Below the pieces are notes generated by a model that was given only the letters and a program-made list of their open reading frames with translations, was not told where the DNA came from and ran no database searches. A stretch of 36,239 nucleotides of DNA from a virus. Position 1 is the stretch's first letter. Every line of letters starts with the position of its first letter. Below are positions 2,802 through 36,239 of the stretch, one piece after another. The position numbers were made by a program, and so were the translations under genes. The stretch lies in the IMG/VR virus record IMGVR_UViG_3300027834_000018, positions 1 through 36,239 of that record, one strand, 5' to 3'.

Positions 2802-3140
2802 TCAATCTCCCTTTGAAATAGATTTTCCTTTACTTATCTCTTCTTCTACAGCTAAAAAATACATAGAATTATATTTCTGTGCTACCCGACGAAGAATTAA
2901 ATATCCTAACAAATCAAGGACTGTATCTTCACCTATTGTTTTACACCCTTTGTACATAATCCTTGATAATTTATCGTCAATCCTGACATTAATTTGTTCG
3001 ATGTTATCAGCTCGGCTAAATATTCGTTTAGGATTAATTGCAGAATCCCCGTATTCTATATTCTTTTTTAGTAACAGAGCTTTTATATCATCGCATTCTT
3101 CTGAGATCATTATTTGAGTATCTTTAAATCTCTTGTTCAT
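2802..3140 (-). CDS. DUF1599-like (nucleotide modification associated domain 1) protein
   Basis: 112 residues. The pattern KNIEYGDSAINP, then a basic segment with VRIDDKLSRI, then EDTVLDLLGYLILRR is that of the DUF1599 / Nmad1 family, found in phages alongside nucleotide-modifying enzymes and distantly like MazG-type all-alpha pyrophosphatases. The Asp/Glu residues in KxxEYGD and IDDK are candidate metal ligands. The start codon lies inside the end of the methyltransferase gene (17-base overlap) with an AGGAGG site. Family assignment is by recognition; activity is unproven. Confidence 0.7.
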   Translation of the reverse strand: MNKRFKDTQIMISEECDDIKALLLKKNIEYGDSAINPKRIFSRADNIEQINVRIDDKLSRIMYKGCKTIGEDTVLDLLGYLILRRVAQKYNSMYFLAVEEEISKGKSISKGD

Positions 3141-4467: not shown

Positions 4468-4468
4468 T

Positions 4469-4687
4469 TTATTCTCCTCCCTCAAATAATTTAATTAAAG
4501 ATTCTTTATCAATATTAGGTAAACAGGAAATTAAACTATCTATACTTATACTATTTTCCTTTTTCTTTTTTGAAGTTTTTTTAACAGGAGGAGGAAGTCT
4601 TCTTCGTTTTCTAATTTTTGTTATATAATTTAATAAATCATTATGAGACATTTCTGAGACAGATATAGCAAGACTATTTATATTCAT
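4469..4687 (-). CDS. Small highly basic protein, unknown
   Basis: 72 residues with a very basic centre (KIRKRRRLPPPVKKTSKKKKE, residues about 24-44) between two helical ends. The charge suggests nucleic-acid binding. The end of the gene carries the ribosome binding site of the methyltransferase gene, and its start overlaps the end of the upstream 77-aa gene. No family recognised. Confidence 0.65.
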   Translation of the reverse strand: MNINSLAISVSEMSHNDLLNYITKIRKRRRLPPPVKKTSKKKKENSISIDSLISCLPNIDKESLIKLFEGGE

Positions 4688-20940: not shown

Positions 20941-20953
20941 AAGGAGGTTTATT

Positions 20954-21061
20954 ATGAGTAGAGGAAAAGGTTCTTGTGGAGGAACAAGACGAAAAGACGG
21001 TTCTGGTGGAGGGACAGGAAATCGAGGAACTATTAGACAACCTAGACCTAAGAAGAAATAA
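20954..21061 (+). CDS. Small Gly/Arg/Lys-rich protein (35 aa)
   Basis: 35 residues, MSRGKGSCGGTRRKDGSGGG then basic end. An exact AAAGGAGGT lies upstream and the stop is two bases before the terminase start. Short GKG-rich peptides of this kind are found next to terminase genes in phages. Its role is not known; disordered and nucleic-acid binding by composition. Confidence 0.6.
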   Translation: MSRGKGSCGGTRRKDGSGGGTGNRGTIRQPRPKKK

Positions 21062-21063
21062 TA

Positions 21064-22599
21064 ATGGAGACTTTAAAAAACGATATTAAGATTCAAAACA
21101 TCATGGAGCAGGCTTACCTAAGCACTCGTTCGATGTGTAAGTTGTATTTTAAGGATACTTTCTCGGCTCCTTTTTCCTCTCTTCACGATAAAATTTTTGA
21201 GTTAATTGATTCTGGAAAACACAAGATAGCGATTGCCGCTCCAAGAGGGATTGGTAAGACTTCGATTGCTAGAGCAGTTGTAAGCAAGGGGATTCTTTAT
21301 CGAGATGTCAACTTTGTAGTATATGTTTCAAATAGTGCTACTCTTGCTGAGATGCAGACAGAGAATATTAAGAGGGAACTTTTATCTAATCAAATTATAA
21401 GGAAGCTTTTTGGAAGTATTAAATCGAGTGATATTGAAGGAATAGATGACACGTTTAGCAAACTCGCATGGGTGGCCTTTGGAAATACCTTTGTCCTTCC
21501 AAGAGGAAGTGGTCAACAAATTAGGGGATTGAACTGGAGTAATCACAGACCTCAACTTTTGGTTATCGATGATTTAGAGGATAAGGAAGAGATAAGAAAT
21601 GAGGATATAAGAAAGAAGCAGAAGGAGTGGTTCTTTAGTGATGTTCTTAAGACAGAGGATAAATACGGGGAACCCTCGACATTTATCTATATCGATACTA
21701 TCAAGCACGAGGATTCATTACTAGAAACACTTATGGAATCTGATGAGTGGACTACATTAAGACTTAGTATTTGTGATGCAAGTTACAACACAGCAGATCC
21801 TAATTACATGACCACTGAAGAGATTAAGGCTGAGGTTGAAGAGCATCGTAAAAAGGGTTTGATGGATTTGTTTTATATGGAGAGGATGAATATTCCTATC
21901 TCCATCGAAGATGCTGTTTTTAAAGAGGAGCATTTTAAGTATTTCGAAGATCAGGGAAGTCAGTTGATTGTGAAAACTGCTGATGTTTCAGGTGCTTTGG
22001 TAGATGAAACTATTCCTACATCCCGTTTGCTACATGTAACAATAGTTGACCCTGCTAAGACTGTTCAATTACACTCTGCCGAGAGTGCTATAGTTACCTT
22101 GGCCGTTGATAGGGAAAGCCATAAGATTTTTGTGAGGGATATTGAAAATAAGAAAGTACGTCCGGACGAGCTTTATGATATAATGTTCGGGCAGGTTATG
22201 AGATTTAACTCTAGGATTTTAGGAGTTGAAGTAACTTCTCTTCACCAGTTTATTAGTCAACCTATTGAAAATGAGATGAGGATTCGAAGTATTTTTCCTA
22301 TGTATTTAGAACTTAAAGCTGTGGGAAAAAAGGAAGAAAGAATTGCTACTCTTGCACCTTTGTATAAATTAGGTTATATTTATCATAACAAGAATAACTG
22401 TGGCCCACTAGAAGCCCAACTTAGATGGTTCCCTCGTGCAAAATACGCTGATGTTATGGATGCTACTGCTTATATAACTAAGATAATGGATGAATTAGAT
22501 TATTATTTTGATCCTCAAGATATGGATAAAGGCGATCCTGAAGATGAGTTTAAAGAACTTACTTATGAAAAACCTGTAGAAAATTGGAGAAGAATTTAA
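21064..22599 (+). CDS. terL: Terminase large subunit
   Basis: 511 residues. ATPase: Walker A APRGIGKTS at 59-67 and Walker B LLVIDD at 165-170 followed by E172, then a C-terminal RNase H-like nuclease with VTIVDPAKT (about 324-332) and further acids. It powers packaging of phage DNA into proheads and cuts the concatemer. The stop overlaps the next start by one base (TAATG). Assignment is secure by motif and context. Confidence 0.95.
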   Translation: METLKNDIKIQNIMEQAYLSTRSMCKLYFKDTFSAPFSSLHDKIFELIDSGKHKIAIAAPRGIGKTSIARAVVSKGILYRDVNFVVYVSNSATLAEMQTENIKRELLSNQIIRKLFGSIKSSDIEGIDDTFSKLAWVAFGNTFVLPRGSGQQIRGLNWSNHRPQLLVIDDLEDKEEIRNEDIRKKQKEWFFSDVLKTEDKYGEPSTFIYIDTIKHEDSLLETLMESDEWTTLRLSICDASYNTADPNYMTTEEIKAEVEEHRKKGLMDLFYMERMNIPISIEDAVFKEEHFKYFEDQGSQLIVKTADVSGALVDETIPTSRLLHVTIVDPAKTVQLHSAESAIVTLAVDRESHKIFVRDIENKKVRPDELYDIMFGQVMRFNSRILGVEVTSLHQFISQPIENEMRIRSIFPMYLELKAVGKKEERIATLAPLYKLGYIYHNKNNCGPLEAQLRWFPRAKYADVMDATAYITKIMDELDYYFDPQDMDKGDPEDEFKELTYEKPVENWRRI

Positions 22600-23543
22600 T
22601 GGCAGAGAAAGAAGTTTGGATAGGTTCAACAGGTCCTTTTATTTTTGATGATACTGAAACTTATGAGGAAGATGGATCAGGGGAAACCTATCGTGGAATT
22701 AGAACTAATAAAATTTACTTGGATGATACTCCTACTGAGGATGGGGAGGTAATTCGATTAGAGGATCTGAATAGAGTTCTTTTAACTCCTTTAGAAGTTA
22801 CCGATATTGATGATCCTTCCACTGAATTAAATGCTATAGAAGGCAGTTTAAGTACTATGCTTTTGGTCTATGAAGTTGAGGCTACTGCTGATGTGTTTAC
22901 TATCTATGTTTGGGATGATACTAATTCAGCAGGTGAAGATGTTCCTTATGTAGTTGATGGCTCAACTGGATATTGGATAGCTATAGGAGGAAAGTATAAT
23001 AATTTTCTAACTGGCGTTGTTTTAGAAACGTTGTTTAATGCTAATACTATCTTAAAGGCCGACTCTGATGATATTCCCTTAGCTTTAACTGTTGGAGCTA
23101 GTACTATTGTTGGTAGGAAGGCGACTGGAAATATAGTTGCTTTGACGAAGACCGAGACATTGGCGATTTTGAATGTAGAAGACGGTGCTGACGTAACTGA
23201 TGAAGATAATGTAGCTGATGCAGGTGCAGTTGTTAATTCAGAAGCTACAGCTACAGCTCATGATTATGCAGGTGGCCATGCTGATTGGGTACTATCTTCT
23301 ACAGAAGGAAATACAAATATTTTAAGGGTTTGGAATAGTGATGCAGCTGTTAATATTATACCTCCTAATGTGGCAAATAAGACCTATATAATATGCAACA
23401 AATGTGGGTATAATGCAGTAGTTAAAAAATCTGGTGGTGTGGGAGTTACGATTGCAACTCTTAGAACTGCTATAGTTCGACGAAGTGGATCTGGTGAAAC
23501 TGATGATTATGCGAGAGTTACTCCTGATGTGGCCTATCTTTAA
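22599..23543 (+). CDS. Fibre-like/baseplate virion protein
   Basis: 314 residues from the ATG overlapping the terminase stop (an upstream in-frame start has no ribosome binding site). The middle holds a recurrent tail-fibre module (STIVGRKATGNIVALT, then LNVEDGADVTDEDNVADAGA) and the C-terminus a beta-rich end (NILRVWNSDAAVNIIPP). No enzyme motif. Likely a fibre or appendage subunit. Confidence 0.65.
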   Translation: MAEKEVWIGSTGPFIFDDTETYEEDGSGETYRGIRTNKIYLDDTPTEDGEVIRLEDLNRVLLTPLEVTDIDDPSTELNAIEGSLSTMLLVYEVEATADVFTIYVWDDTNSAGEDVPYVVDGSTGYWIAIGGKYNNFLTGVVLETLFNANTILKADSDDIPLALTVGASTIVGRKATGNIVALTKTETLAILNVEDGADVTDEDNVADAGAVVNSEATATAHDYAGGHADWVLSSTEGNTNILRVWNSDAAVNIIPPNVANKTYIICNKCGYNAVVKKSGGVGVTIATLRTAIVRRSGSGETDDYARVTPDVAYL

Positions 23544-23555
23544 GCGGAGATATAA

Positions 23556-23849
23556 ATGACTAAAAACCTTAGTGATGATTTTACTTGGAAACATTTAGTA
23601 GCATTAATAGGAATCTTAACTCTTTTTACTTCGACAGGAGTTTCACTTGCTGGATATTTGAGAAGTAAGGCAGATCAAACTGATTTAATAAGGGTTGAAA
23701 AACAAAGTGTTTTAAGAGATACAGTTATTAAGGAAGATTTAAAAGATCATGTTGCAAGAGTAGAAGGTCAAATTAAGGAGATTAGAAAAACTGTAACTAG
23801 TCAAATGGATAAGGGATTTGATAGAATTATAAAAGCAATTAATAAATGA
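23556..23849 (+). CDS. Membrane protein with coiled-coil tail
   Basis: 97 residues. One predicted membrane helix at about 13-36 (LVALIGILTLFTSTGVSLAG) and a long charged helical tail to the end (RVEGQIKEIRKTVTSQMDKG). The arrangement is like inner-membrane spanins or XhlA-type lysis accessory proteins, so it could pair with the lipoprotein at 19409. Alternatively a virion assembly membrane protein. Confidence 0.6.
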   Translation: MTKNLSDDFTWKHLVALIGILTLFTSTGVSLAGYLRSKADQTDLIRVEKQSVLRDTVIKEDLKDHVARVEGQIKEIRKTVTSQMDKGFDRIIKAINK

Positions 23850-23859
23850 GGTAAATTAA

Positions 23860-25791
23860 ATGCCTTCAGTAATACAAGGAAATCCAAATGCTTCAATTGA
23901 TTCTTCTTTTTTAGAGAAGGATTTAGGATATGACTATCCCTATGAATTGAATTTAAAACCAGGATCAAAACTGCATAGTAAGATTAAAGATGAGGTTCTT
24001 AAAAGAGCGAGGGAGAGTAGTGATCTTATTTCTAATAGAATTGAATCATGGAACGAGTCAGAAAGAGTGATGACTGCTTATATAGATCTTTCTGATGAGG
24101 AGAAGAAGATTAAAAGTGCCGATTCTAGAAAGCCAGTTTCTATTGTCTTTCCCTATACTTATGTTATTATAGAAACTATCTTGACCTACTTAACAATGGC
24201 TTTTCTTAATGATCCTATTTTTAGATACAAAGGAAGATCACCTGAGGATACTCTTGGAACTATTATGTTGGAGAAACTTATCCAAAATCAATGTAGCTTT
24301 TTTAAAGTTCCTTTGGCCTTACATACTTTTTTACGAGATTCATTAGTTTATGGAATTGGGGCTGGAGCGCCTGTATGGGAAAAGAAGACAGGGATGGTAG
24401 TTAAGGAAGATAAAACTGGATTTATGAGTTATTTTAAGGGACATGGAAATAAGGTTTATGAAGAGGAGGTTATTTATGAGGGAAATAAATTAGAGAATGT
24501 AGACCCTTATCTATACCTTCCTGATTCAAGAGTTCCTTCTCATAAACTTCAGGATGGTGAATATGTGGGATGGATACATCCTACTTCTAGAATAACTTTG
24601 TTGAGGGATGAGAAGTTAGAAAATGATATTTTCAATGCGAAGTATTTAAAAGGAGTTCAAAGAAAGAGAAATTCTATTTATACTGTTGGAGAGTCTATTA
24701 GGAATAAAAAGACAGGAATGAATAATTATAGATACTTGAATGATTCTGTTAGTAATCCTATTGATGTTATTTATATGTATGTAGATCTGATTCCTAAGGA
24801 ATGGGAATTAGGAAAGAGTGAAAATCCTGAAAAATGGTTGTTTGGATTGGCTAATGATGAGATAGTAATTAAAGCAAAGAAGTTAGGATTGGCTCATGGG
24901 ATGTATCCGATTGTTACGATATCCCCGGATTATGATGGTTATTCTGTTTTACCTTTAGCAAAAACTGAGGTTTTGTATGGTTTACAGGGAGTTTTGGATT
25001 TTTTATTTAATACGCATATAGAAAATGTTAGAAAATCTATTAATGATATGCTAATAGTTGATCCTTATCTAATTAATATTGGTGATCTTAAGGATCCACA
25101 AGCAGGAAAACTTATAAGAATGCGTCGTCCTGCTTGGGGAAAGGGGGTGAAAGATGCTGTTCAACAATTGAGAGTAGATGATATAACTAGATCAAATATT
25201 GCAGATACTTCTACTATCGTCCAGTGGATGCAAAAAGTAGGAGGGGCTGATGAGAGTATGATGGGAGCACTTCGTCAAGGAGGGCCTGAAAGATTAACAG
25301 GACAGGAATTTCAAGGAACAAGATCGGGAGCGATTGGAAGATTAGAGAGACTTGCAAAAGTAATTAGTATGCAAGGGTTCCACGATTTGGGATATATGTT
25401 TGCTAGTCATACTCAACAGTTAGCAAGTCAGGAGACTTATGTAGATACTATTGGAAGATGGCAGGAGGACTTAGAACCTATTTATGGAAGTGCTCCGAGG
25501 ATGAAGGTTACTCCTTGGGATTTGCTGATTAACTTCGATTTGGATATTAAGGATGGAAGTATTCCTGATGGAGATTCTAAAGCATGGATTAGGTTATATG
25601 ATATCCTGGCCAAGAATCCTGCAGTTGGAGGTAAATTTAACATGGTCAAGGTCTTTGAACATATAGCTCAGATTATGGGAGCTAAGAATGTACAGGACTT
25701 TAAAATTAACCCCAAAGCAATACCTGATGAGATGGTTCGAGATGAGGTTCAGAAAGGAAATGTTGTTCCTATGGGGGAATTTTCACCATAG
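23860..25791 (+). CDS. Portal protein
   Basis: 643 residues of the podovirus-type portal: helical start with conserved RKPVSIVFPYTYVIIETIL, LRDSLVYGIGAGAPVWEK, core with GLAHGMYPIVTISPDYDGYS, and a wing region with RLTGQEFQGTRSGAIGRLER. The portal forms the dodecameric ring through which DNA passes. The C-terminal VVPMGEFSP and the TAG stop are encoded by palindrome copy 7, so the repeat replaced the natural tail. It is 18 bases or less from the next gene. Confidence 0.9.
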   Translation: MPSVIQGNPNASIDSSFLEKDLGYDYPYELNLKPGSKLHSKIKDEVLKRARESSDLISNRIESWNESERVMTAYIDLSDEEKKIKSADSRKPVSIVFPYTYVIIETILTYLTMAFLNDPIFRYKGRSPEDTLGTIMLEKLIQNQCSFFKVPLALHTFLRDSLVYGIGAGAPVWEKKTGMVVKEDKTGFMSYFKGHGNKVYEEEVIYEGNKLENVDPYLYLPDSRVPSHKLQDGEYVGWIHPTSRITLLRDEKLENDIFNAKYLKGVQRKRNSIYTVGESIRNKKTGMNNYRYLNDSVSNPIDVIYMYVDLIPKEWELGKSENPEKWLFGLANDEIVIKAKKLGLAHGMYPIVTISPDYDGYSVLPLAKTEVLYGLQGVLDFLFNTHIENVRKSINDMLIVDPYLINIGDLKDPQAGKLIRMRRPAWGKGVKDAVQQLRVDDITRSNIADTSTIVQWMQKVGGADESMMGALRQGGPERLTGQEFQGTRSGAIGRLERLAKVISMQGFHDLGYMFASHTQQLASQETYVDTIGRWQEDLEPIYGSAPRMKVTPWDLLINFDLDIKDGSIPDGDSKAWIRLYDILAKNPAVGGKFNMVKVFEHIAQIMGAKNVQDFKINPKAIPDEMVRDEVQKGNVVPMGEFSP

Positions 25792-25792
25792 A
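25768..25792. repeat. 25-bp palindromic element, copy 7 (inside the portal 3' end)
   Basis: CCTATGGGGGAATTTTCACC then ATAGA: arms pair with one G-A mismatch and one G-U. It overlaps the last codons and stop of the portal gene. Same family as copies 1-6 and 8. Confidence 0.65.
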
Positions 25793-25805
25793 AGAAAGGA
25801 TGGAT

Positions 25806-26060
25806 ATGCTTTATAAAAGTAGTGTAAGAAAGATTGAGGATTTTATTGAAAGTGTTATTTGGAAAGATTTTGAACTTGAGTTACATTTATGGTTAAATGA
25901 TGTAAGGAATAGCTTAGAAGATCCAAAAGGAGAGCTAGATTTATATGAGGTGAAGAAACTTCAGGGATGTGCTGAGGCAATTAGAAATGTTTTAGATCTT
26001 CCTGAAACAATTATTAAAAATATAATTATAGAATTAGAAGAGGAGAAAAAAGATGAGTAA
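25806..26060 (+). CDS. Small helical protein between portal and scaffold
   Basis: 84 residues from ATG 25806 (an ATG at 25800 is too close to the ribosome binding site). All-helical, acidic: IEDFIESVIWKDFELELHLW, CAEAIRNVLDLPETI. Small phage proteins of this build often sit between portal and scaffold and are head-assembly chaperones; this is inference. Overlaps the scaffold gene by 8 bases. Confidence 0.65.
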   Translation: MLYKSSVRKIEDFIESVIWKDFELELHLWLNDVRNSLEDPKGELDLYEVKKLQGCAEAIRNVLDLPETIIKNIIIELEEEKKDE

Positions 26061-26976
26061 GGAAGAAGCATTGTCTAAAGAGATAGATGAAATGCTAGGA
26101 GATATGATTATAGACTCTGAATCAAAACCTCCGTCTGAAGAGGTGCCTGCCTCTGATGAAAAAGAGCTTGAAGAGAAAAAACTTGAAGAGGAAGAGAAAG
26201 AGGAAACTTCTGAGGAAGAGGCTTCTAAAGAAATACCTTTAAAGAAAGAGGATGATGATGAGGAACCTCCTCCAAAGGTAGATGAAGAACCTCTTGCAGA
26301 AGAAGAAACTTTTACTGTAGAAGAACTTCAAGCTAGAATAAAGAAACTTACTGAAAGAGTCGAAGAACTTACACCTAGTCAATTTGAAGAGTTGCCTAAG
26401 CCTAAAAAGGAACCTAAAAAAGATGAACCTAAAAAAGATGAGGATGATCAAGAGGTTTCTGATAAATTAGTTCCTGTTAAAGAATTTGATAAAAATGTTG
26501 ATTTTTTAGGAGAGGCTACAGTAGATGATTTAATTGATGATAGGGAATTGTTCAACGGTGTTTTGAATAGTGTTTTTGCAAACGCTGTGGAAACATCTAA
26601 AAATCTGATTTTTGAGAAAGTTCTTTTATCAATCCCTGAGATTGTTACTGGACATATTAGTAGACAGGCAACTATAGGAAAACTAGTTGGGGATTTTTAT
26701 GATGCTAACAAGGATTTAGTCTCAGTCAAAAGAACTGTGGGCGCTGTAGCAAATAATTTACATGCTGAGAACCCGGACTGGAAAGTTGATGAGGTATTTA
26801 ACAAAGCAGCTGAGAAAACTAGAGAAGTATTAGGTTTGAAAAAACCTGTTGAAAAGATAGAAAATAAAGAATTTAGTGAAGACCCTGCTTTTGTAGGTTC
26901 AAAGAGTGGAAAACCTCCTACACGAAAAAGTTTGGGGACTCTTCAAGATGAGATAGATGATTTTATTAATGAATAG
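26053..26976 (+). CDS. Capsid scaffolding protein
   Basis: 307 residues. Residues 1-150 are disordered and extremely charged (runs of Glu, Lys and Pro), residues 90-108 a coiled-coil stretch (VEELQARIKKLTERVEEL), and the C-terminal half folded helices (FLGEATVDDLIDDRELFNGV, then a basic KPPTRKSLGTL). Acidic, repetitive proteins directly before decoration and capsid genes are typical scaffolds that guide prohead assembly and leave. GAGGAATTAAAAATG-like spacing to the next gene follows its TAG stop. Confidence 0.8.
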   Translation: MSKEEALSKEIDEMLGDMIIDSESKPPSEEVPASDEKELEEKKLEEEEKEETSEEEASKEIPLKKEDDDEEPPPKVDEEPLAEEETFTVEELQARIKKLTERVEELTPSQFEELPKPKKEPKKDEPKKDEDDQEVSDKLVPVKEFDKNVDFLGEATVDDLIDDRELFNGVLNSVFANAVETSKNLIFEKVLLSIPEIVTGHISRQATIGKLVGDFYDANKDLVSVKRTVGAVANNLHAENPDWKVDEVFNKAAEKTREVLGLKKPVEKIENKEFSEDPAFVGSKSGKPPTRKSLGTLQDEIDDFINE

Positions 26977-26988
26977 GAGGAATTAAAA

Positions 26989-27360
26989 ATGAGTCTTGAG
27001 AGACGAGATGTGGGATTAGGGAGTATAGGATTAGGTGATCAACGTTCTAGTGGCACACTGACACAGAATGGAAAAACTGTGTTTGCTACTGAATCCTTTA
27101 GTATGGACATTAATGATCAGGTTGTTAGAGCAGTTACTGGAGCTGTTCTGGATGTTACTGTGACTCTTCCATCTGTTATGGAAGCTGCTGGCAGAATTTT
27201 CTCTATTAGTCTTATTACTGACGGTGGAAAAGATGTAATAATTCAGGATAAAGATGATGATGCCGCTCTTACCGATATTACTTTAGATACCGCTAATGAC
27301 TATGCTATACTCTATTCTGACGGATATGTTTGGCGAGAGTTTGCTAGTGAAAAAGCATAA
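26989..27360 (+). CDS. Putative head decoration protein
   Basis: 123 residues, beta-rich: TLTQNGKTVFATESFSMDIN, VTVTLPSVMEAAGRIFSISL, then GGKDVIIQDKDDDAALTDIT. The pattern of an N-terminal arm and a compact sandwich recalls phage head-decoration or capsid-stabilising proteins. GGAGGAATTAAAA precedes the ATG and the next gene follows after 15 bases. Confidence 0.6.
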   Translation: MSLERRDVGLGSIGLGDQRSSGTLTQNGKTVFATESFSMDINDQVVRAVTGAVLDVTVTLPSVMEAAGRIFSISLITDGGKDVIIQDKDDDAALTDITLDTANDYAILYSDGYVWREFASEKA

Positions 27361-27375
27361 TAGGAGGTAATAATA

Positions 27376-28377
27376 ATGTGGATAGGAGATCTAATAAAAG
27401 CAGGAATAAGTTCTGATGGTAAGAATGTAGATTTTTTTAGAGGTACGCTTACTGTCGCTGGAACTCCTGTGGTTGGTACGGTATTTGGAAATGCGTGGTA
27501 TGTTGACTATAGAAATGGAGTTGATACACATAACGGTAAAACTAGAGATAAAGCCTTTAAAACTTTTAGTGCAGCAATAGCTGCGTGTGCATCTAATAAT
27601 AATGACGTGATTTACATAGATGGTGATTCGACTGTGGTTGAAACTGCTATGGTGGAGTTGACTAAAAATAGAGTTCATGTTATGGGATGTAATGGGCCTT
27701 TAGGTCATTATGGGGCTGGAGCTAAAATTAGTTGTACTCTTGATTCTGGTGCAACTAATATTGCAACGTTTAAGAATACAGGTGTAAGGAATACTTTCAC
27801 AGGTATTAAATTCATAAATGCTAATACTGTTGCAGAGGGTTTGTATAGTGTAGCTGAAGGTGGTGAGTATTCTCGATACTTTGGATGTGAGATGTATAAA
27901 TCAACTGATCTTGATGAAACTGCAGCAGCTGAGCTTTTGCTTAATGGTGATAGTGCAATGTTTTATGGTTGTACTCTTGGTTCATTAGCTAACATCATTG
28001 CTGATAATAAAATTAGGCCAAATGTTTTACTGACACGGGAAACAATTACTGGTAAGGTTTGTCGAGATTCTTACTTTGGAGATTGTTTATTCTTTAGTAA
28101 AGCAGGTGGAACTGAACATGTATCAGTTTATGGTGCTAATGCTAATGATGTCGAGAGATTGTTAATGTTAAAAGATTGTTCATTTATAAATAACCCACTA
28201 TCAGCCGCAACGCCTGCTCATGCTGTAGGATTTGGAGCCGCACAGACTCAGGGAGCCGTCTTTTTGAAAGGCTGTTCTTCGGTAGATCATACTGTTATGG
28301 CTCAGGCAGCAGTTGGAATCTATGTTGATGGAGCAGTTCCAGGATTTGCTACTAGTGGTGTTTCTGTATTATCATAA
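27376..28377 (+). CDS. Right-handed beta-helix structural protein
   Basis: 333 residues. NAWYVDYRNGVDTHNGKTRD then KAFKTFSAAIAACASNNNDV is the entry of a parallel beta-helix (pectate-lyase-like), followed by repeated strands (GVRNTFTGIKFINANT, YFGCEMYKS, AMFYGCTLG, RDSYFGDCLFF, LMLKDCSFIN, AVFLKGCSSVD). Located between decoration and capsid genes, it is likely on the head surface; a depolymerase role cannot be excluded. TAGGAGGTAATAATAATG start. Confidence 0.7.
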   Translation: MWIGDLIKAGISSDGKNVDFFRGTLTVAGTPVVGTVFGNAWYVDYRNGVDTHNGKTRDKAFKTFSAAIAACASNNNDVIYIDGDSTVVETAMVELTKNRVHVMGCNGPLGHYGAGAKISCTLDSGATNIATFKNTGVRNTFTGIKFINANTVAEGLYSVAEGGEYSRYFGCEMYKSTDLDETAAAELLLNGDSAMFYGCTLGSLANIIADNKIRPNVLLTRETITGKVCRDSYFGDCLFFSKAGGTEHVSVYGANANDVERLLMLKDCSFINNPLSAATPAHAVGFGAAQTQGAVFLKGCSSVDHTVMAQAAVGIYVDGAVPGFATSGVSVLS

Positions 28378-28398
28378 ATTATTTAGGAGGTAAATATA

Positions 28399-29697
28399 AT
28401 GGGTGCATTTTTAGGAATGAGAGGATCGGGTGATTGGGCTAGTGATCAACGTCCGAAAAATTGGAGGGAAGCAATACTTTATGAATATCCTAATGGATCA
28501 GCTCCACTGACAGCGATGCTTAGTAAGTTAGGGAGCCAGAGCGTAACAGATCCTGAGTTTAACTGGTGGACTAAAACATTGCCTACTCAAGCAGGAGATG
28601 TTGTAGCAGGCGAAATTTATACAGATGCTCTTATGAGTTCTGCTTATGCAAGTGCAGGTGCCGTAGGGGACATTCTGTATGTGAAAGTTGCTGAGGCTGT
28701 AGCGGATCATTTTAGAGCCGGCCACCAGGCATTGTTGAGGGATGTGAGCGACTATGACGTTGACGTAAATGTTAAAGTTATAGCAGTCCAGAAGAATGGA
28801 GCATCCTCTTGTATTACTGTTAAGCTTCTGGAGGCTGATACAGATACAGCTGATAGTCATAATATAAGTGATGCGGATAGAATTTTGGTAATAGGTAATT
28901 TAAATGCTGAAGGTGCTGCAATGCCTGATGCGATAAGTTATGATCCTACCAAGATTTATAATCGTACTCAGATTTGGAGAACTTCTCTTGAAATTACTAG
29001 GACGGCTAGGTTGACCACACTCAGAACTGGTGATGCCTATAAAGAAATGAAGAGAGAAGCCCTGGAGTTGCATTCTATTGAACAGGAAAAAGCATTCATC
29101 TGGGGTATTATGACGGAGAATACAGGAAGTAATGGGAAACCTGAAAGAACAACTAGAGGATTAGTAAATATTATTAAGACCTATGCCGCTACTAATGTCG
29201 ATGATTTTTCGCTTAATACTGATTATTCAGGTGATACTTGGCTAGTTGGTGGTGAGGAGTGGTTAGATAATGCACTTAGGTTAATGTTCCGATATGGAAG
29301 TGGCGAGAAGATGGTTTTTGCAGGGGATGGTGCACTTCTGGGAATTAATAGACTTGCAAAATCTAGTGGTCAGATGAATCTCACTAGTGAAACTAAAGCT
29401 TACGGGATTCAGGTTACTACTTGGCAAACTCCTTTTGGAAAAATTTATATTAAAACTCATCCGTTGTTTAGTTATGAGGCTGCTAATCAACATTCTATGC
29501 TTATCTTTGAACCATCAGAATTAAAGTTCCGTTATATTACGGATACTAAGTTCTATCCAGATCCTGATAAGCAAAATTCTGGCTGGACTAGGAAGGATGG
29601 AACTACTGAAGAGTTTTTGACTGAGGCTGGATTAGAGTTTCATTTTCCAACAGGTTGGGGATATTTGAATGGTGTAGGAAAGGATAACATAGTGTAA
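28399..29697 (+). CDS. Major capsid protein (DUF5309-like)
   Basis: 432 residues. Opens MGAFLGMRGSGDWASDQRPK with a conserved ILYEYPNGSAPLTAMLSKL and WRTSLEITRTARLTTLRTGD middle, and EEFLTEAGLEFHFPTGWG end. This fits the DUF5309 / SU10-like group with the HK97 fold. It builds the icosahedral shell, in line with the scaffold upstream. TTAGGAGG precedes the ATG; a GC-rich hairpin follows the stop. Confidence 0.85.
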   Translation: MGAFLGMRGSGDWASDQRPKNWREAILYEYPNGSAPLTAMLSKLGSQSVTDPEFNWWTKTLPTQAGDVVAGEIYTDALMSSAYASAGAVGDILYVKVAEAVADHFRAGHQALLRDVSDYDVDVNVKVIAVQKNGASSCITVKLLEADTDTADSHNISDADRILVIGNLNAEGAAMPDAISYDPTKIYNRTQIWRTSLEITRTARLTTLRTGDAYKEMKREALELHSIEQEKAFIWGIMTENTGSNGKPERTTRGLVNIIKTYAATNVDDFSLNTDYSGDTWLVGGEEWLDNALRLMFRYGSGEKMVFAGDGALLGINRLAKSSGQMNLTSETKAYGIQVTTWQTPFGKIYIKTHPLFSYEAANQHSMLIFEPSELKFRYITDTKFYPDPDKQNSGWTRKDGTTEEFLTEAGLEFHFPTGWGYLNGVGKDNIV

Positions 29698-29708
29698 TTT
29701 AACCTCTT

Positions 29709-29734
29709 GGAGGGAGAGTTTTGACTTTCCCTCC
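29709..29734 (+). terminator. Strong hairpin after the capsid gene
   Basis: Arms GGAGGGAGAGT and ACTTTCCCTCC pair over 11 positions (one G-U) around TTTG. No long U-tract follows (TTTAGG), so it may act as a partial terminator or protect the abundant capsid message at its 3' end. Confidence 0.65.
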
Positions 29735-29748
29735 TTTAGGAGAAGAGA

Positions 29749-30033
29749 ATGATATTTAGGGAATCTGAGACACTAGAAAAATACTATCAAAGGAGTTGTG
29801 CAATGGCTATTACAGTAGATGATGTTAAAAAGAATAAGATTACATTAGAGTCTACAATTCTGAAATTGGTCCAGAATTTTGAAAAAGATAATGGAATCTA
29901 TGTTTCCTTTATTAATTTTGATAGAAAGAGAAAAGAGGATAAGGGTGAGGAATCTCAACCAGTTGAATATCATAAGGGAAGAAGCCCTATTAAAAAAATT
30001 ACTGTAAATATGGACTTAGATTTGATTTATTGA
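29749..30033 (+). CDS. Small protein with two in-frame starts
   Basis: 94 residues from ATG 29749 (AGGAG 6 bases upstream) or 76 from ATG 29803, which follows AAAGGAG by seven bases; both ribosome binding sites are good, so two forms are possible. From the second start it reads MAITVDDVKKNKITLESTIL, then VSFINFDRKRK and a polar, basic end. It lies between capsid and adaptor genes. No family recognised. Confidence 0.6.
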   Translation: MIFRESETLEKYYQRSCAMAITVDDVKKNKITLESTILKLVQNFEKDNGIYVSFINFDRKRKEDKGEESQPVEYHKGRSPIKKITVNMDLDLIY

Positions 30034-30043
30034 GGAAAATAAA

Positions 30044-30763
30044 ATGAACCTAGGTGAAATACGAACTTTGTTTATTGAGAGAAGTGGGAGAGAGGATTTA
30101 ATAAACTTAGACGATAGTGACAATGGTGCTAATTTTTTTATTCAATCTGGGCAGAGAACTTTAGATAGAATGTTTGAGGTTGAAAAAAGTTGGGCAAGAT
30201 CTTTTAAAGATTTTCCTGCAGGAAGTTATTATGCTATCTTTAAGGGATGTAGAGCAATTAAAAGAGTATGGATTACTTCTGCTACGGAAAGAGTTAAACT
30301 TGAAAAAGCCACTTTGGAGGAATTACGAGAGCTTTATACAGGTCCTCCAGATGATGTTGATCAAGGAGATTCGTTATATTATTGTCCTATCTCTTTACGC
30401 ACTTATCCAGATGACAGTAATATAATTATAGATTATTTTTATGGCAGTAAAATAGAAGATGTTGCTACTGAGGATTATGAGTATTTAGGAATATTAGTTC
30501 TTCCTCCTCCTGATGTAGCATCTCATTTAGAAGTCTTTGGACTGTTTAGTTCTCCTGAATTATCTGCTGATGGGGATGAGAGTTATTGGACGGTCAAGAA
30601 TCCAGAGATTCTTCTAATGGCTTCATTGTATCATTTAGAAGTAAATTATAGAAACACTGAAGGAGCTAATGATTGGATGGGAGCTATTAAGTTAGAGTTA
30701 ATTAATTTAGAGAAGGACTTAGTTGAGAATGAAATTGCTGAAGTAACTCAGATTTCAGGATAG
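30044..30763 (+). CDS. Head-tail adaptor-like protein
   Basis: 239 residues: NLGEIRTLFIERSGREDLIN, then a middle with GCRAIKRVWI and SNIIIDYFYGS, and a C-terminal helical part (ILLMASLYHLEVNYRNTEGA). Phage adaptors of podoviruses (gp6/gp4-like) have a comparable helical build and sit after the capsid gene. The function is inferred from position and build. Stop TAG is followed by the next ribosome binding site. Confidence 0.6.
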   Translation: MNLGEIRTLFIERSGREDLINLDDSDNGANFFIQSGQRTLDRMFEVEKSWARSFKDFPAGSYYAIFKGCRAIKRVWITSATERVKLEKATLEELRELYTGPPDDVDQGDSLYYCPISLRTYPDDSNIIIDYFYGSKIEDVATEDYEYLGILVLPPPDVASHLEVFGLFSSPELSADGDESYWTVKNPEILLMASLYHLEVNYRNTEGANDWMGAIKLELINLEKDLVENEIAEVTQISG

Positions 30764-30771
30764 GAGTTGGT

Positions 30772-31284
30772 ATGAAAAGAGAACTAACAATCAAAGGAAG
30801 TACTATAGATGAGAAGTTTAAATCTACTGAATTAATTCTCAGGAGAATGGGAAGGAGGATGATAGATAAGGTTGTAGGAATAATGCCTGTATCTTTTGTG
30901 TTTAATTCTATTTATAAACCTACCTCCGAAGGATTGATTCATAAGACAATCTTTCCTGCTTCAGGATTTCTTTCAAAAGGGTATATAAGTTTAGACTCTA
31001 GTGGGCCCGTTGTCTTGACTCTTAAGATAGTAAATAGTAAACTAAAAAAATCATTTCTTCAGGATTATATAGTAAAGAAAGGAGATACTTCTATTGACTT
31101 GAAGCTCAATATAATCTCAGGAGATAAAGTATCTATTTTTGCATTTCCTTCTAAGGAGACTAAGGAAAAAGATAAGGGAGGGGAGTATATTAAGGAGATT
31201 TTATTTGGGGCATTATATGAGATAGATTATAAGAATTTAGATGGAAAAACGTTTCTCATTGATGAAATAGATAAGTTAACTTAG
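30772..31284 (+). CDS. Virion-associated protein, unknown
   Basis: 170 residues. N-terminal helix with basic RRMGRRMIDK, then a beta-rich domain (GFLSKGYISLDSSGPVVLTL and VKKGDTSIDLKLN) of the kind found in collar or tail-tube proteins. In the connector gene cluster; no family recognised. Confidence 0.55.
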   Translation: MKRELTIKGSTIDEKFKSTELILRRMGRRMIDKVVGIMPVSFVFNSIYKPTSEGLIHKTIFPASGFLSKGYISLDSSGPVVLTLKIVNSKLKKSFLQDYIVKKGDTSIDLKLNIISGDKVSIFAFPSKETKEKDKGGEYIKEILFGALYEIDYKNLDGKTFLIDEIDKLT

Positions 31285-31291
31285 GAGTAAA

Positions 31292-32746
31292 ATGAAAGCC
31301 TTTACATATACATTTAAAGAGGGATTATTGAAGGGATTGAGAAGGTTTGCTCTTCATCCTCGGAATGAGCAGACGTTAGTGGAATGTCATAATGCTATGC
31401 CTTGTGAAGAAGGATTAAGACCTCATAAGGTAGTTCATTCTCTTGATTCTGATACGATATTAGGGGATGGAACCTGGGATGTTTTTAGTTGGCCCTTTCC
31501 TCAGGTTAGGTTTCTGGATCAGTATGTTATAGGGTTTGCGAGAAGTGGTACGGATTTGCTTTTATGTGAACTTACTTATGATGGATCCGATATATGGACT
31601 TCTACATCTGTTTATAATCTAGGTTCGGCGTCAAATATAGATCAAATTGAGGTTGCTGACTTAGGACCATTTTATATGATGTCTGTCTCTGGAAAACCTG
31701 TAGATACAGTAATCATCGAATCTTATATAAGGAATCCTACGGCGGTAGGAGATAAGATTACTAAACTTCCTAATGATTACATCCCTAAACATCTTGCAAT
31801 GTGTAACTATAATGGACAGTTCTTAATTGGAGGAATAATTCCTGGAGTTGCTGCCTCATTTGGGGACCTAGATTTACATACTGTAGCATGGAGTCAAATA
31901 GGGAGGATAGAATTTAGGATTGATAATTCTGTTACAAGGACTGCTGGTTATACTAACATGCCTTGGAAAGGACAGGATGTTGGGATAGTTTATAAACTTG
32001 CAAAGTTAGGTAAGTCCGTAATGGTTTATGGGGATGGAGGAAGGTTAGCTCTTATTCCTTATTCTCAACCTGTATCAGGATATGGTCAACAGCTACTTTC
32101 AAGAGGTGGAGTAAGGAGTGGAAATCATGTGGACGGAGATGATCTTATTCATGGATTTATCGATATTAATTATGATTGGTGGACTATTGATGGTAGTTTA
32201 AAAGCTACTAAGTGGGGTTATAGGGAATTTATGAAGGATCTTGTAGAGAATGGTGCAACAAGAGTTTCCTTTGAACCTATTGAAAGAAGGTTTTATATAA
32301 GTAACGGAGTGAAGGGATTTGTGTTTACTGAACAAGGGTTGTATTCTACACATCAATTAGTTTCTTCTATAGGTAATCATCTTGGAATTTTAAGTGGATT
32401 TTTTGAGGACTCAGAAGATACGGAGTATAGGATTGTCAGTGATACTTTGGACTTTGGATTAAGAGGATTGAAAACTGTAGAGACAATGGAAATAGGGATA
32501 GATGCTCCTGATCATGTTTTTGGGGCTGTTGATTATAGGTATGATAAAACAGGGACTTTTACAAGGAGTCCTTGGAATAGAACTAACAAACAGGGAGGAG
32601 TAGGGATTATTAAAACTGCTCCTGAGTTTAGATTGGGGGTAAAGGCTGATGATTATGAAGATGTTAATCTTGACTACATGGATCTCTCAGTTAAGATCTC
32701 TGATAAAAGAATGCTTAGAAGGAAATATAATATAAAGGAAAAATAA
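31292..32746 (+). CDS. Tail/stabilisation structural protein (P22 gp10-like build)
   Basis: 484 residues, beta-rich, with repeated Trp/Gly/Asp strands: FTYTFKEGLLKGLRRFALHP, DTILGDGTWDVFSWPFPQVR, LHTVAWSQIGRIEF, GDGGRLALIPYS, GVKGFVFTEQGLYS. It resembles beta-propeller-type head-to-tail stabilisation/hub proteins of podoviruses. Position after the adaptor gene supports this. The stop overlaps the following start (TAATG). Confidence 0.55.
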   Translation: MKAFTYTFKEGLLKGLRRFALHPRNEQTLVECHNAMPCEEGLRPHKVVHSLDSDTILGDGTWDVFSWPFPQVRFLDQYVIGFARSGTDLLLCELTYDGSDIWTSTSVYNLGSASNIDQIEVADLGPFYMMSVSGKPVDTVIIESYIRNPTAVGDKITKLPNDYIPKHLAMCNYNGQFLIGGIIPGVAASFGDLDLHTVAWSQIGRIEFRIDNSVTRTAGYTNMPWKGQDVGIVYKLAKLGKSVMVYGDGGRLALIPYSQPVSGYGQQLLSRGGVRSGNHVDGDDLIHGFIDINYDWWTIDGSLKATKWGYREFMKDLVENGATRVSFEPIERRFYISNGVKGFVFTEQGLYSTHQLVSSIGNHLGILSGFFEDSEDTEYRIVSDTLDFGLRGLKTVETMEIGIDAPDHVFGAVDYRYDKTGTFTRSPWNRTNKQGGVGIIKTAPEFRLGVKADDYEDVNLDYMDLSVKISDKRMLRRKYNIKEK

Positions 32747-33183
32747 TGCTACAGCAAATAATGCCTGAGCAAGTTCCCTATTATTGGGAAGCTATAAAAG
32801 ATAAAGTAGATGAAACACTGCCTAAGATTCCAGGAGAAAAAAATAAGTTAAATAATATTCTAGCTAGTCTTCTTAATGGTTCTATGCTTTGCTGGATAGG
32901 GTATAGAATGGTAGGAGATAGAAAAAAGTCAAATGCCTTTTTACTTACCTCTTTTGTGGATGATGATTTAGCAGAGGTTAGAGGTCTTCTTATATATTGT
33001 TTGTTTAGTATTGGTAGAATGGATAGATCATTTTGGACAGAGGGTTTTGAGGCCTTGAGAAAGTTTGGACTGTCTAAAGGATGTACTCGACTGATTGCTT
33101 ATTCTAGAGATGATTTTATAATAAGGATGATGAGAGATCTTGGTGGAGAGGTTGTTTATCAATTTGCATCTATTCCAATGTAA
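32746..33183 (+). CDS. GNAT-like acetyltransferase fold protein
   Basis: 145 residues. The strand-helix pattern and the C-terminal FWTEGFEALRKFGLSKGCTR followed by LIAYSRDDFIIRMMRDLGGE are typical of small phage GNAT-fold proteins. The acetyl-CoA loop (Q/R-x-x-G-x-G/A) is not clear, so catalysis is uncertain. Placed inside the virion cluster, coupled to the structural gene by TAATG, it may modify a virion component or have a structural role. Confidence 0.65.
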   Translation: MLQQIMPEQVPYYWEAIKDKVDETLPKIPGEKNKLNNILASLLNGSMLCWIGYRMVGDRKKSNAFLLTSFVDDDLAEVRGLLIYCLFSIGRMDRSFWTEGFEALRKFGLSKGCTRLIAYSRDDFIIRMMRDLGGEVVYQFASIPM

Positions 33184-33208
33184 CCTACGGTGAAAAATTC
33201 CCCATAGG
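33184..33208. repeat. 25-bp palindromic element, copy 8
   Basis: Arms CCTACGGTGAA and TTCCCCATAGG around AAA. It occupies the gap between the GNAT-like gene and the 528-aa ejection protein and abuts the latter's ribosome binding site. Confidence 0.7.
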
Positions 33209-33217
33209 AGATTAATT

Positions 33218-34804
33218 ATGAAGGTTTATACTAAAGTAGTTATAGATATAGAATCTAATGAAGTGGTTTGCGAAGAGAGTTATGAATACTCAGGTAAGGT
33301 TGCACTATGTGGTAGTTCAGGTGGAGGTGGAAGTGGTCGTGTTGATTATCCTGATTACATGAAGGATCAACATGAACTTTGGTTAGATGCTATGGCACTT
33401 GATATAACTGCTGCAAGAACTGGTGGTAGTCCTTTTGCGGCAGAGGCTGCTTATGATCCTGCAGCTAGAATCCTTAACATGGATACTGCAATATCAGGTT
33501 TTAGTACTAGTGTTGGAGCGCTAGATAATACTTTAGATTGGAGTACGGCTTTAGCATATGGACTAACTACATCAGATAATTTACTTCCCCCTTATGAACC
33601 TGCCGCAGTAATCACTGCGATGGAAGCTAATATTGTGCAGATAAATACTTTAATTCTAAGTTTTAAAACTTTAATTGAGACTTTATCTCATGATGTTGAT
33701 TGGAAAACAACTTTGCAATATGCTATAACACAAGTAGATCTTTATCTATCTCCTTATGCTCCTGCAGCAGTAATTGCTGATATGGAAACTTCTATTGCAG
33801 GATTAGATACTGATGTAACATATTTTGAGGATTTAGTTAAAGCTATGGCATTTCAGTCAGATTGGGAAACTGCTGTTGACACTGTTAAGGCTAAGTTAGA
33901 TGCTGTAGTATTTGATGATGCTTATATAACTGCAGATATTGCAGCATTTCAGAATGTATTAGATGATGACATTACGAATAAGATATTACCTGACTTTCAA
34001 TCAGGTTTAAGGGATGTAAATGCAGTTTATACTTCTGCATTTATAATGGGTGAGGCATTGATCAATGCTATGAAAGGTAGAGATGTTGCGAAGTATGGAA
34101 CCGAAGTAAGGATGAAATTCAACCTTCAACGCAACGAGGCAATTAAAACTGCTGCAGAAAGAATAGTTTCAGACTTTCATAAGCAGATTGATTTTCATAG
34201 AGCAGTTATGCTAGCACGAGTAGATAGTCGTAGATTAGAATTAGAAAAATGTAATGCTGAATTAAAACTAAATGAGCAAAGTTTGGAAATGATTAAAATA
34301 GGCGTAGAACGTATGCTTGCGAATCTGGATAAGGAGATGGAATTTCAGAAGTCAATACTTCAGGCACAGATGGATAAACATAAGTTAGAGTTAGAAGTTT
34401 CTAATGCAGAGTTAAAAGTAAATGAGCAAAGTCTTACTATGATTAAGTTAGGTGTAGATCACATGATGAAGAATTTGTTTGAGAAGATTAGACTCTTACA
34501 TGCGTATGTTCAACTTAACTCTGATGCAATGAGGGGTGGTATAACAGCATCAAAAGAGGAGGTAGATCAAGACTTATTAATTTTAGACATGGATGCTAGA
34601 TGGGATATGGATGTTTTTCAATATGGTGCTAATTTACTCGCAGGTATTGGAAGTGGGACAGTTGCATCTGGCAATGCAGGAATGAGTAAAACTCAATCTG
34701 CTTTAAGTGGAGCGATGAGTGGAGCAGCAGCGGGGGCAGGAGGTGGAGGTCCGGGAATGATAGCAGGAGGAATTATAGGAGGAATTGGAGGACTCTTAGG
34801 TTAA
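33218..34804 (+). CDS. Ejection/internal virion protein with repeats and glycine-rich membrane tail
   Basis: 528 residues. Opening MKVYTKVVIDIESNEVVCEE, then ESYEYSGKVALCG and SSGGGGSGRVDYPDYMK is a conserved start of podovirus internal proteins. Two tandem repeats lie at about 115-195 (YGLTTSDNLLPPYEPAAVI / YAITQVDLYLSPYAPAAVI), two coiled-coil repeats with NAELK(L/V)NEQSL(E/T)MIK at about 345-425, and a Gly/Ala-rich hydrophobic end (GAMSGAAAGAGGGGPGMIAG and following). These are the features of proteins ejected into the host envelope to form a DNA conduit; the role is inferred. Confidence 0.7.
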   Translation: MKVYTKVVIDIESNEVVCEESYEYSGKVALCGSSGGGGSGRVDYPDYMKDQHELWLDAMALDITAARTGGSPFAAEAAYDPAARILNMDTAISGFSTSVGALDNTLDWSTALAYGLTTSDNLLPPYEPAAVITAMEANIVQINTLILSFKTLIETLSHDVDWKTTLQYAITQVDLYLSPYAPAAVIADMETSIAGLDTDVTYFEDLVKAMAFQSDWETAVDTVKAKLDAVVFDDAYITADIAAFQNVLDDDITNKILPDFQSGLRDVNAVYTSAFIMGEALINAMKGRDVAKYGTEVRMKFNLQRNEAIKTAAERIVSDFHKQIDFHRAVMLARVDSRRLELEKCNAELKLNEQSLEMIKIGVERMLANLDKEMEFQKSILQAQMDKHKLELEVSNAELKVNEQSLTMIKLGVDHMMKNLFEKIRLLHAYVQLNSDAMRGGITASKEEVDQDLLILDMDARWDMDVFQYGANLLAGIGSGTVASGNAGMSKTQSALSGAMSGAAAGAGGGGPGMIAGGIIGGIGGLLG

Positions 34805-34822
34805 TATTAGGAGGATTAAACT

Positions 34823-35335
34823 ATGTGGGCAGAACTTTTAAGCGGTTTAGGCAACATGGGACAGCAGATTGGAAATCAGGCTATGAACATGGGAAACAAA
34901 GCTATGCAGGTAGGAAGTGATATGATAACTAAAGCTCCAGGAACTGGACAGGCTCAGGATAAGTGGAGTAGAATAGGTAGTGCTCTCGGACAGATGGGTA
35001 GTAGTATTGCTCCTGAAGGAACCTGGCAACATGGTTTAGGGAAGAAAGCCAGTGAATTATCAGTTCAAGATTTGTACGGGAAGAGAATGGGAAAAGTAGA
35101 TGCAGGAAGAACTAAAAGAAGAAGTGGTATTGATGAAGCTATTGCAGGACTAGGTGGAGTCACTCCTAAGGGTATGCCTGGAGTTACAGGGTATGAGATG
35201 GGAAAGGATGGAGATTATACTTTAAAAGGAGATCTTGGAATCCCTGAACTTAAAATGGATCCTACATTAAATAAAACTATTAATTATGGAAATGATTTCA
35301 CTACTGGTTTGCAAGATCAATCAAATTTTCTGTAA
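34823..35335 (+). CDS. Zero-frame product of a frameshifted virion gene (170 aa)
   Basis: 170 residues, mostly Gly/Met/Gln/Asn (GLGNMGQQIGNQAMNMG, GKDGDYTLKGDLG), in the style of ejection proteins. The stop TAA at 35333-35335 comes 3 bases after the heptamer A AAT TTT. Reading one base back at the heptamer continues through the open frame to 36108 with a sensible join (QSN then SVSPGRLTSEDLAGLPPELV). Whether the 170-aa form is real by itself or a frameshift/indel consequence is open. Ribosome binding: TTAGGAGGA. Confidence 0.65.
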   Translation: MWAELLSGLGNMGQQIGNQAMNMGNKAMQVGSDMITKAPGTGQAQDKWSRIGSALGQMGSSIAPEGTWQHGLGKKASELSVQDLYGKRMGKVDAGRTKRRSGIDEAIAGLGGVTPKGMPGVTGYEMGKDGDYTLKGDLGIPELKMDPTLNKTINYGNDFTTGLQDQSNFL

Positions 35336-35373
35336 GCCCTGGTAGATTAACTAGTGAAGATTTAGCAGGGCTT
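35323..35373 (+). promoter_or_regulatory. -1 programmed frameshift signal
   Basis: Slippery heptamer A AAT TTT at 35323-35329 in the correct phase of the upstream frame, spacer CTGT (35330-35333), and a perfect 8-bp stem AAGCCCTG at 35334-35341 with CAGGGCTT at 35366-35373 (24-nt loop, 5 G-C pairs). This is the classical layout X XXY YYZ, spacer, structure. Frame continuity downstream is open for 259 codons. Confidence 0.7.
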
Positions 35374-36108
35374 CCACCGGAGTTAGTTGATAAACTTATA
35401 ACTCAGGAGCTTATGGGTGAACAGGCTGACTTAAAATTACTTCAAACTATGCAAAATCTATATGGGCCTAAAGCAGGGCGAATAGTTGAAGGAGAAAAAG
35501 GAAAGCAGTTGGTCAATCCTATAACTGGAGAAGTTAAAGATTTAGGGATTCCAACATATAGAAAACCTGAATCACCTGATCTTACAAAAGGTGATAAATT
35601 TTATTGGAGGTGGGATCCTAATAAAGGAGAGATGGTTAAATCTAAAGTACCTACTCCAAAAACATCTGATTCAGGTCAAGGAACACTTAAGAAAATGAAG
35701 TTTTGGGGGCCTGACGGAGAGCCTAGATCTAAGTTAGTAGCAGAGAAAGATTGGAATGCTACAGAAGAAAGACTTCAGAAAGAAGGTTATACTGTTGGCG
35801 AAGCTCCTGGACAAGTAAGAGAAAATGAAAAACTTGCTATAAAAGCTAAAACTACAGCTTTCGATCCTAATACTGAAGATTCAAGTAGATTAAATGCTGT
35901 AGGAATTTATAATCAAAATAGTTCTAATAATGCTACAGAATATTTAGAATGGTTTGCCGGACCTTTTACATATGATAGAGTAAAAACTCATAAACTTCCT
36001 GTAAAAGCTAATAAAAAAAGACTTACAATGGGAGAGGTTAGAAAAGTTGCTAAGAAACGTGGAATGTCTATTAATGAGGTATTAGAAGAAATAGGAGTTG
36101 AAAAATGA
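35329..36108 (+). CDS. Minus-one frame extension of the 34823 gene (259 aa; joined product about 428 aa)
   Basis: From the slippery site the frame reads SVSPGRLTSEDLAGLPPELV, KLITQELMGEQADLKLLQTM, then a basic, Gly-rich middle and a helical end (LTMGEVRKVAKKRGMSINEV). The piece beginning at ATG 35413 might also be made alone: AGGAG lies only three bases before it, which is weak. In comparable podoviruses the corresponding ejection protein is one continuous frame, so the joined product is favoured. The stop overlaps the next gene's ATG. Confidence 0.65.
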   Translation, partial: SVSPGRLTSEDLAGLPPELVDKLITQELMGEQADLKLLQTMQNLYGPKAGRIVEGEKGKQLVNPITGEVKDLGIPTYRKPESPDLTKGDKFYWRWDPNKGEMVKSKVPTPKTSDSGQGTLKKMKFWGPDGEPRSKLVAEKDWNATEERLQKEGYTVGEAPGQVRENEKLAIKAKTTAFDPNTEDSSRLNAVGIYNQNSSNNATEYLEWFAGPFTYDRVKTHKLPVKANKKRLTMGEVRKVAKKRGMSINEVLEEIGVEK

Positions 36109-36239
36109 ACTTGCGAGAAGAATTAGGACTGACTACTAAAACTTCTAGTCAAGATATTGAAACAGAAAAACAGGACGTTGAATTAGGAATACGTGAAGAG
36201 TTGGGACTTGCGTCTATTAAAAAAGATCAGAAGAAAAAA
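36105..36239 (+). CDS. Start of a large internal-virion-type gene (partial)
   Basis: 45 residues are present: MNLREELGLTTKTSSQDIE, then VELGIREELGLASIKKDQ, running off the right edge. Two copies of (L/I)REELGL suggest a repetitive, helical N-terminus. ATG overlaps the previous stop (ATGA). From position it is probably another ejection or internal virion protein, but the body lies outside the window. Confidence 0.55.
   Translation, partial: MNLREELGLTTKTSSQDIETEKQDVELGIREELGLASIKKDQKKK

Follow-up and report, generated by a model that had tools for sequence, protein, structure and literature searches.

Conserved frameshifts in phages are described for the tail assembly chaperones of the lambda G/GT type (Xu, Hendrix and Duda 2004, as cited in PMC9965538 and PMC8008677). 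The gene analyzed here, located at the end of the window (the whole stretch of DNA under study, which is a complete IMG/VR record of 36,239 bp), resembles this system in that a -1 slippery heptamer is found near the end of the first frame, with a short and a C-terminally extended predicted product, and in that the signal is conserved across distant phages although the sequence is not. Unlike G/GT, the gene belongs to an apparent ejection module with an SU10-type portal and capsid and adjoins a gene with an SLT domain; it does not lie directly before the tape-measure gene of a long-tailed phage, the position that identifies a tail assembly chaperone, and the fused homologues of this family keep the signal with the polarity reversed.

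Two further phage systems are comparable. In gp10A/10B of T7 and in the major capsid protein (MCP) of kuraviruses (site GGGAAAG; PMC9965538), a -1 frameshift in a podovirus structural gene likewise yields a short and an extended isoform; however, the gene concerned is a different one, and the MCP of the window itself (28399-29697) has no long -1 extension. For gp39/gp40 of Alteromonas phage vB_AspP-H4/4 (MF278336), an internal virion protein, a -1 slippery sequence has been proposed (PMC5658483). What it shares with the window is a -1 shift predicted for a podovirus internal virion protein, with a short form of 161 aa and a long form, but the H4/4 case is a prediction from one genome without comparative support. 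The H4/4 gene encodes an endolysin-domain (gp16-like) protein of a T7-type phage, whereas the window gene corresponds to the one before the SLT gene, so that H4/4 was rejected as a homologue. The fused members of the family described below are more similar to dnaX (tau/gamma), where the zero frame yields the long product and a -1 shift, soon running into a stop, yields the short one, with a Shine-Dalgarno (SD) sequence upstream and a stem downstream; unlike the phage family, in which both polarities of one homologous cassette are found, dnaX is a cellular polymerase gene. The class of mechanism is known; in the open-licence literature, searches found nothing that describes a conserved frameshift for this gene, such depth of conservation in it, or the polarity flip.

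The split gene and its genomic context

The phage represented by the window possesses a major capsid protein, portal and adaptor of the SU10 type, encoded in the order terminase, portal, capsid, adaptor, a stabilisation-type protein, a small acetyltransferase-like protein, P0003, the split gene, and a gene that is cut by the end of the record after 135 bases (Table 1). Relatives show the same gene order, and in these the gene after the split gene is very long, contains an SLT lysozyme (transglycosylase) domain in loci L142 and L112, and in none has a tape-measure family as its main match. In relatives, the split gene adjoins an internal-virion-type gene with an SLT domain, which is the position expected in an ejection module. 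We take this layout to be an ejection module of the gp14, gp15, gp16 type of T7, with the split gene in the middle position. By gene order alone, the product of the split gene would be an ejection protein, and it probably helps phage DNA ejection. The label given to it in the first-pass annotation, "ejection-type" or "virion", is compatible with the neighbouring genes (a P0003-type gene before and, in some relatives, an SLT gene after) but finds no counterpart in a functional family or fold: it derives from position because the split-gene protein matches neither a Pfam family nor a PHROG with an assigned function nor a fold. The structure model of the fused sister from locus L033 (mean pLDDT 65) is of too low quality in its N-terminal half, and no match came from fold searches. 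Elsewhere in the window, an ORF on the minus strand (3124-4485) seems, by eye, to combine an N-terminal domain of ParB type with a DNA N-methyltransferase that has a DPPY motif.

Table 1. Positions of the split gene, its candidate frameshift signal and the adjacent genes in the window
Feature	Position	Strand	Basis or remark
P0003, upstream virion-type gene, 528 aa, glycine-rich C-terminus	33218..34804	+	synteny anchor for homologous junctions
Shine-Dalgarno AGGAGG of ORF1	34809..34814	+	8 nt 5' of ATG 34823; sequence
ORF1, zero frame, 170 aa	34823..35335	+	predicted short isoform and N-terminal part of long isoform
-1 frame open stretch; from the heptamer to TGA 36106-36108, C-terminal part of predicted long isoform	35296..36108	+	matches C-terminal region of relatives with one ORF
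Slippery heptamer A AAT TTT, -1 phase	35323..35329	+	six bases before end of ORF1 TAA
Spacer CTGT, heptamer to stem (4 nt)	35330..35333	+	sequence
Zero-frame stop TAA, overlaps 5' arm of stem	35333..35335	+	sequence
Stem 5' arm AAGCCCTG, 8 bp	35334..35341	+	folding and arm covariation
Conserved motif DLAGL codons, -1 frame	35359..35373	+	motif comparison with relatives
Stem 3' arm CAGGGCTT, overlaps A-G-L codons of D-L-x-G-L motif	35366..35373	+	folding and covariation across relatives
Next gene start, cut by record end	36105..36239	+	ATG overlaps ORF2 stop

ORF1 comprises 170 codons, and its 3' end reads ..TCA AAT TTT CTG TAA. The stem, of 8 bp with a loop of 24 nt, begins 4 nt 3' of the heptamer, and the segment 3' of the heptamer folds with -18.9 kcal/mol (z = -2.95 relative to dinucleotide shuffles). 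Further in-phase XXXYYYZ heptamers occur within ORF1 at 34891, 35089, 35200 and 35221, but only the heptamer at 35323 falls in the overlap of ORF1 and the -1 frame. The positions assigned earlier to ORF1, heptamer, spacer, stem and -1 frame all match the sequence.

The reading that we consider best compatible with these and the following observations, with a probability of roughly 0.87, is that the window carries a programmed -1 ribosomal frameshift that is part of a family cassette keeping both isoforms, with opposite polarity in fused relatives. Most ribosomes would read ORF1 and terminate at the TAA at 35333, giving the protein of 170 aa; the hairpin (35334-35373) would pause a fraction of them while AAT occupies the P site and TTT the A site, and the paused ribosomes would re-pair on AAA TTT and proceed in the -1 frame to 36108. 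The -1 frame counts 261 codons from the heptamer, and the predicted long isoform is about 427 aa in length, with the first 169 residues common to both products.

Slippery site and stem in split relatives

When searched directly, neither half of the protein has a match in viral contigs or phage records, and homologues were reached by synteny only, through the capsid gene and the upstream gene (by an alignment of proteins resembling P0003). In 87 dereplicated loci, we inspected what follows the P0003-like gene: it is one long ORF in 44 and has a second ORF in the -1 frame in 31, and the other 12 are +1-split, open-ended or unclassified. Over their full length, the two ORFs of the window align with the N-terminal and the C-terminal part of single-ORF relatives. 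The second part is in the +1 frame in six loci (L114, L130, L157, L160, L161 and L170), and four loci (L012, L019, L050 and L086) possess two adjacent P0003-like genes, the second copy being diverged; in L012 the heptamer was counted via the later gene pair (19954-20421).

An in-phase X XXY YYZ heptamer is found in the frame overlap of 23 of the 31 split -1 loci, compared with 11 of 298 other overlapping -1 ORF pairs, defined mechanically as controls, in the same loci (Fisher p = 1.2e-20, with the relatedness of the loci ignored). Since the loci are related and include close pairs (e.g., L126/L127, L142/L143 and L097/L098), this and the other p-values overstate independence. The heptamer is C CCT TTY in 18 loci, A AAT TTT in three (the window, L107 and L129, at a homologous place) and A AAC CCT in two. 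Given the amino acids, the codon choices of C CCT TTY have a probability of about 1e-20 over the 18 loci, and the residue before this heptamer varies (S, N, T, I, V, P, A) with the third base always C. In L087, L128 and L136, a -1-frame stop is located immediately 5' of the heptamer, so that the open -1 frame begins with the heptamer itself and a shift is possible only there or later.

The pattern is not universal in the family, in view of the six +1 splits and of eight split -1 loci that lack an XXXYYYZ heptamer, at least three of which (L019, L059 and L110) have a TAATG start on the stop. The same overlapping start is present in Microcystis phage Mel-JY34 (L174, 19627-20958), whose two genes are annotated in the -1 relation about 280 nt apart. 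For the second gene, the start annotated at 19909 is probably placed too far 3': the second frame extends up to an ATG overlapping the previous stop (TAATG), with the SD-like sequence GGGAGAAGG before it. Mel-JY34 was therefore rejected as an isolated frameshift phage, and the TAATG overlap is, by its sequence, a third way to two proteins from the homologous gene in some members. No isolated phage with the split frameshift form is found among the records reached by the capsid and upstream-gene searches; in these, the gene is fused, restarted or otherwise arranged. In Desulfofustis phage LS06-2018-MD01, the closest relative with a name, it is fused, without an in-phase heptamer. In the split -1 locus L070, the ORF1 stop at 17596 is associated with an imperfect heptamer, G GAT TTT, followed by a context nearly identical to that of the window, TTTTCGGTAAGCCCTGGTGG.

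The overlapping starts in L019, L059, L110 and Mel-JY34 are also what lends some plausibility to the idea that the window contains two separate genes, with ORF2 translated either from the ATG at 35413, preceded at a distance of 3 nt by AGGAG, or through re-initiation once ORF1 has terminated, and with the heptamer being incidental. We regard this as very unlikely. A start at 35413 drops the conserved DLAGL region; in 12 of the 23 loci with a heptamer, the window and 11 others, the -1 frame lacks ATG, GTG and TTG before the D-L-x-G-L motif, which argues against independent initiation; and separate genes leave both the heptamer and the covarying stem unexplained.

A hairpin begins a few nucleotides 3' of the heptamer in most loci, with z mostly between -2 and -5.8, and in many its 3' arm covers the D-L-(A/R/T)-G-L codons. 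The stem partners vary between loci at wobble positions (e.g., GCCCTG/CAGGGC vs GCCAG/CTGGC), although such pairs are canonical by construction because they were taken from folding each sequence. Covariation was assessed independently, with the 3' arm set from the protein motif alone and the arms swapped between loci in 5000 permutations: the own-arm pairing score is 576.5 vs 375.7 +/- 18.7 for swapped arms, a value reached in 0 of 5000 permutations, and the result is again 0/5000 in split-only loci and in fused-only loci. The first-pass annotation had proposed a programmed -1 frameshift and had pointed to the slippery site and the stem as the elements to look for in relatives. Both turn out to be conserved across related loci, and together with the covariation of the stem and the conserved product sizes (see below) they strongly support that proposal.

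Upstream of the heptamer, a match to the anti-SD sequence that ranks in the top tenth of the respective ORF1 is present at 14 of the 23 sites, all of them C CCT TTY, although glycine codons in the conserved region could add to such matches. The A AAT TTT and A AAC CCT sites have no top-tenth match, the window included, where the anti-SD pairing 6-18 nt upstream of the heptamer amounts to -2.7 kcal/mol (rank 0.90 in its own ORF1); on this rank, an upstream SD was rejected as part of the window signal. These position-specific elements, the downstream stems and upstream SDs, are stimulators of ribosomal frameshifting and speak against the suggestion that the frame is changed by transcriptional slippage rather than by the ribosome. 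The heptamer does contain short homopolymer runs, but these are only A3, T3-T4 and C3, and slippage of bacterial RNA polymerase is known on runs far longer than these, so that we give this explanation almost no credence.

Fused relatives and the polarity of the cassette

The first-pass annotation had set against a programmed frameshift the prospect of homologues that form one continuous frame without a slippery heptamer, which is too simple a criterion. Continuous-frame homologues do exist and include the sister locus L033, but most of those that keep the motif also retain heptamer and stem, in the opposite sense. Among 20 single-ORF loci with the motif, 15 contain an in-phase heptamer 6-20 codons before it, where 7% would be expected from the heptamer density of the same fused genes (p = 5e-14). 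A scan of fused genes gives 18 of 44 vs 34 of 573 control ORFs (p = 5e-10), with thresholds set after seeing examples; regular-expression motif calls, as used here, miss divergent members. In 15 fused loci with heptamer and stem that were analyzed in detail, a -1 slip would lead to a stop 2-20 nt past the heptamer. This stop lies within 8 nt in 12 of the 15, compared with 37% expected (p = 9e-4), a closeness that is only modestly unusual, given how frequent stops in the -1 frame are in these genes.

The short product that a -1 slip would give in the fused loci is predicted to be 120-186 aa long and the default long product 365-496 aa; the corresponding predictions for split loci are 126-195 aa for the short product and 356-528 aa for the long one where complete. 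At the level of sequence, split and fused loci encode the same two sizes with opposite polarity. In split loci, the frameshift would give the long form, and in fused loci, where the long form is the default, the same cassette of heptamer, spacer and hairpin built on the DLxGL codons would give the short one, such that both isoforms would be maintained across the family. In the commonest layouts, the two polarities are set apart by one base in the spacer, the commonest distance from heptamer to motif being 38 nt in split and 39 nt in fused loci.

Sister or near pairs of split and fused loci illustrate this one-base difference: the window and fused L033 both have A AAT TTT at a homologous place, and split L134 and fused L125 or L149 all have A AAC CCT; split L165 and fused L148 form another such pair. 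Mapped on a quickly built tree of the P0003-like protein, the frameshift label requires 14 changes, of which well-supported branches force at least nine, and the fused label requires 23; the split and fused states interleave. With somewhat better than even confidence, we propose that a single ancestral cassette fixes a short/long pair of ejection proteins across a large clade, and that one-base indels in the spacer have repeatedly switched the default isoform, with compensating changes of slippery sequence, SD and stem.

The fused state of the nearest relatives of the window (L033, L147 and L034 are single ORFs) also implies that a one-base indel error would look alike in the window, and the split there could in principle be an artefact of assembly or sequencing, the true run being T5 and the frame continuous. 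The split site is covered by only one contig: a second assembly, L003 (IMGVR_UViG_3300002225_000018), is 99.96% identical to the window over 19988-34844 and ends 22 bases inside ORF1. It is, however, gap-free relative to the window over these 14,857 bp, and the window shows the split-type distance of 38 nt from heptamer to motif that is seen in other split loci. Furthermore, 22 other contigs are split at the homologous site in different sequence, with a conserved heptamer and stem. Altogether, an indel appears improbable, if less so than separate genes, and even with T5 the A AAT TTT heptamer and the stem would persist, making the window a fused-type two-product locus of the other polarity.

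The evidence for the programmed frameshift is comparative throughout: sequence establishes the cassette and its conservation, the covarying stem, the two product sizes and the opposite polarities, and we infer from these that the cassette works in cells and that it sets an isoform ratio. The gene family would belong to the module for DNA ejection in podovirus-like phages whose capsid and portal are of the SU10 type; both isoforms may be virion or ejection proteins, with their ratio mattering for assembly.

Among phage frameshifts, conservation of this depth is known for tail assembly chaperones and for a few capsid genes. If the ejection module contained a second such class, a fixed ratio between the two isoforms would matter for the delivery of DNA, which is a poorly understood step. 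Gene callers would mis-annotate these loci in opposite ways, missing the long form where the gene is split and the short form where it is fused, and the polarity flip represents a natural experiment on what selection preserves.
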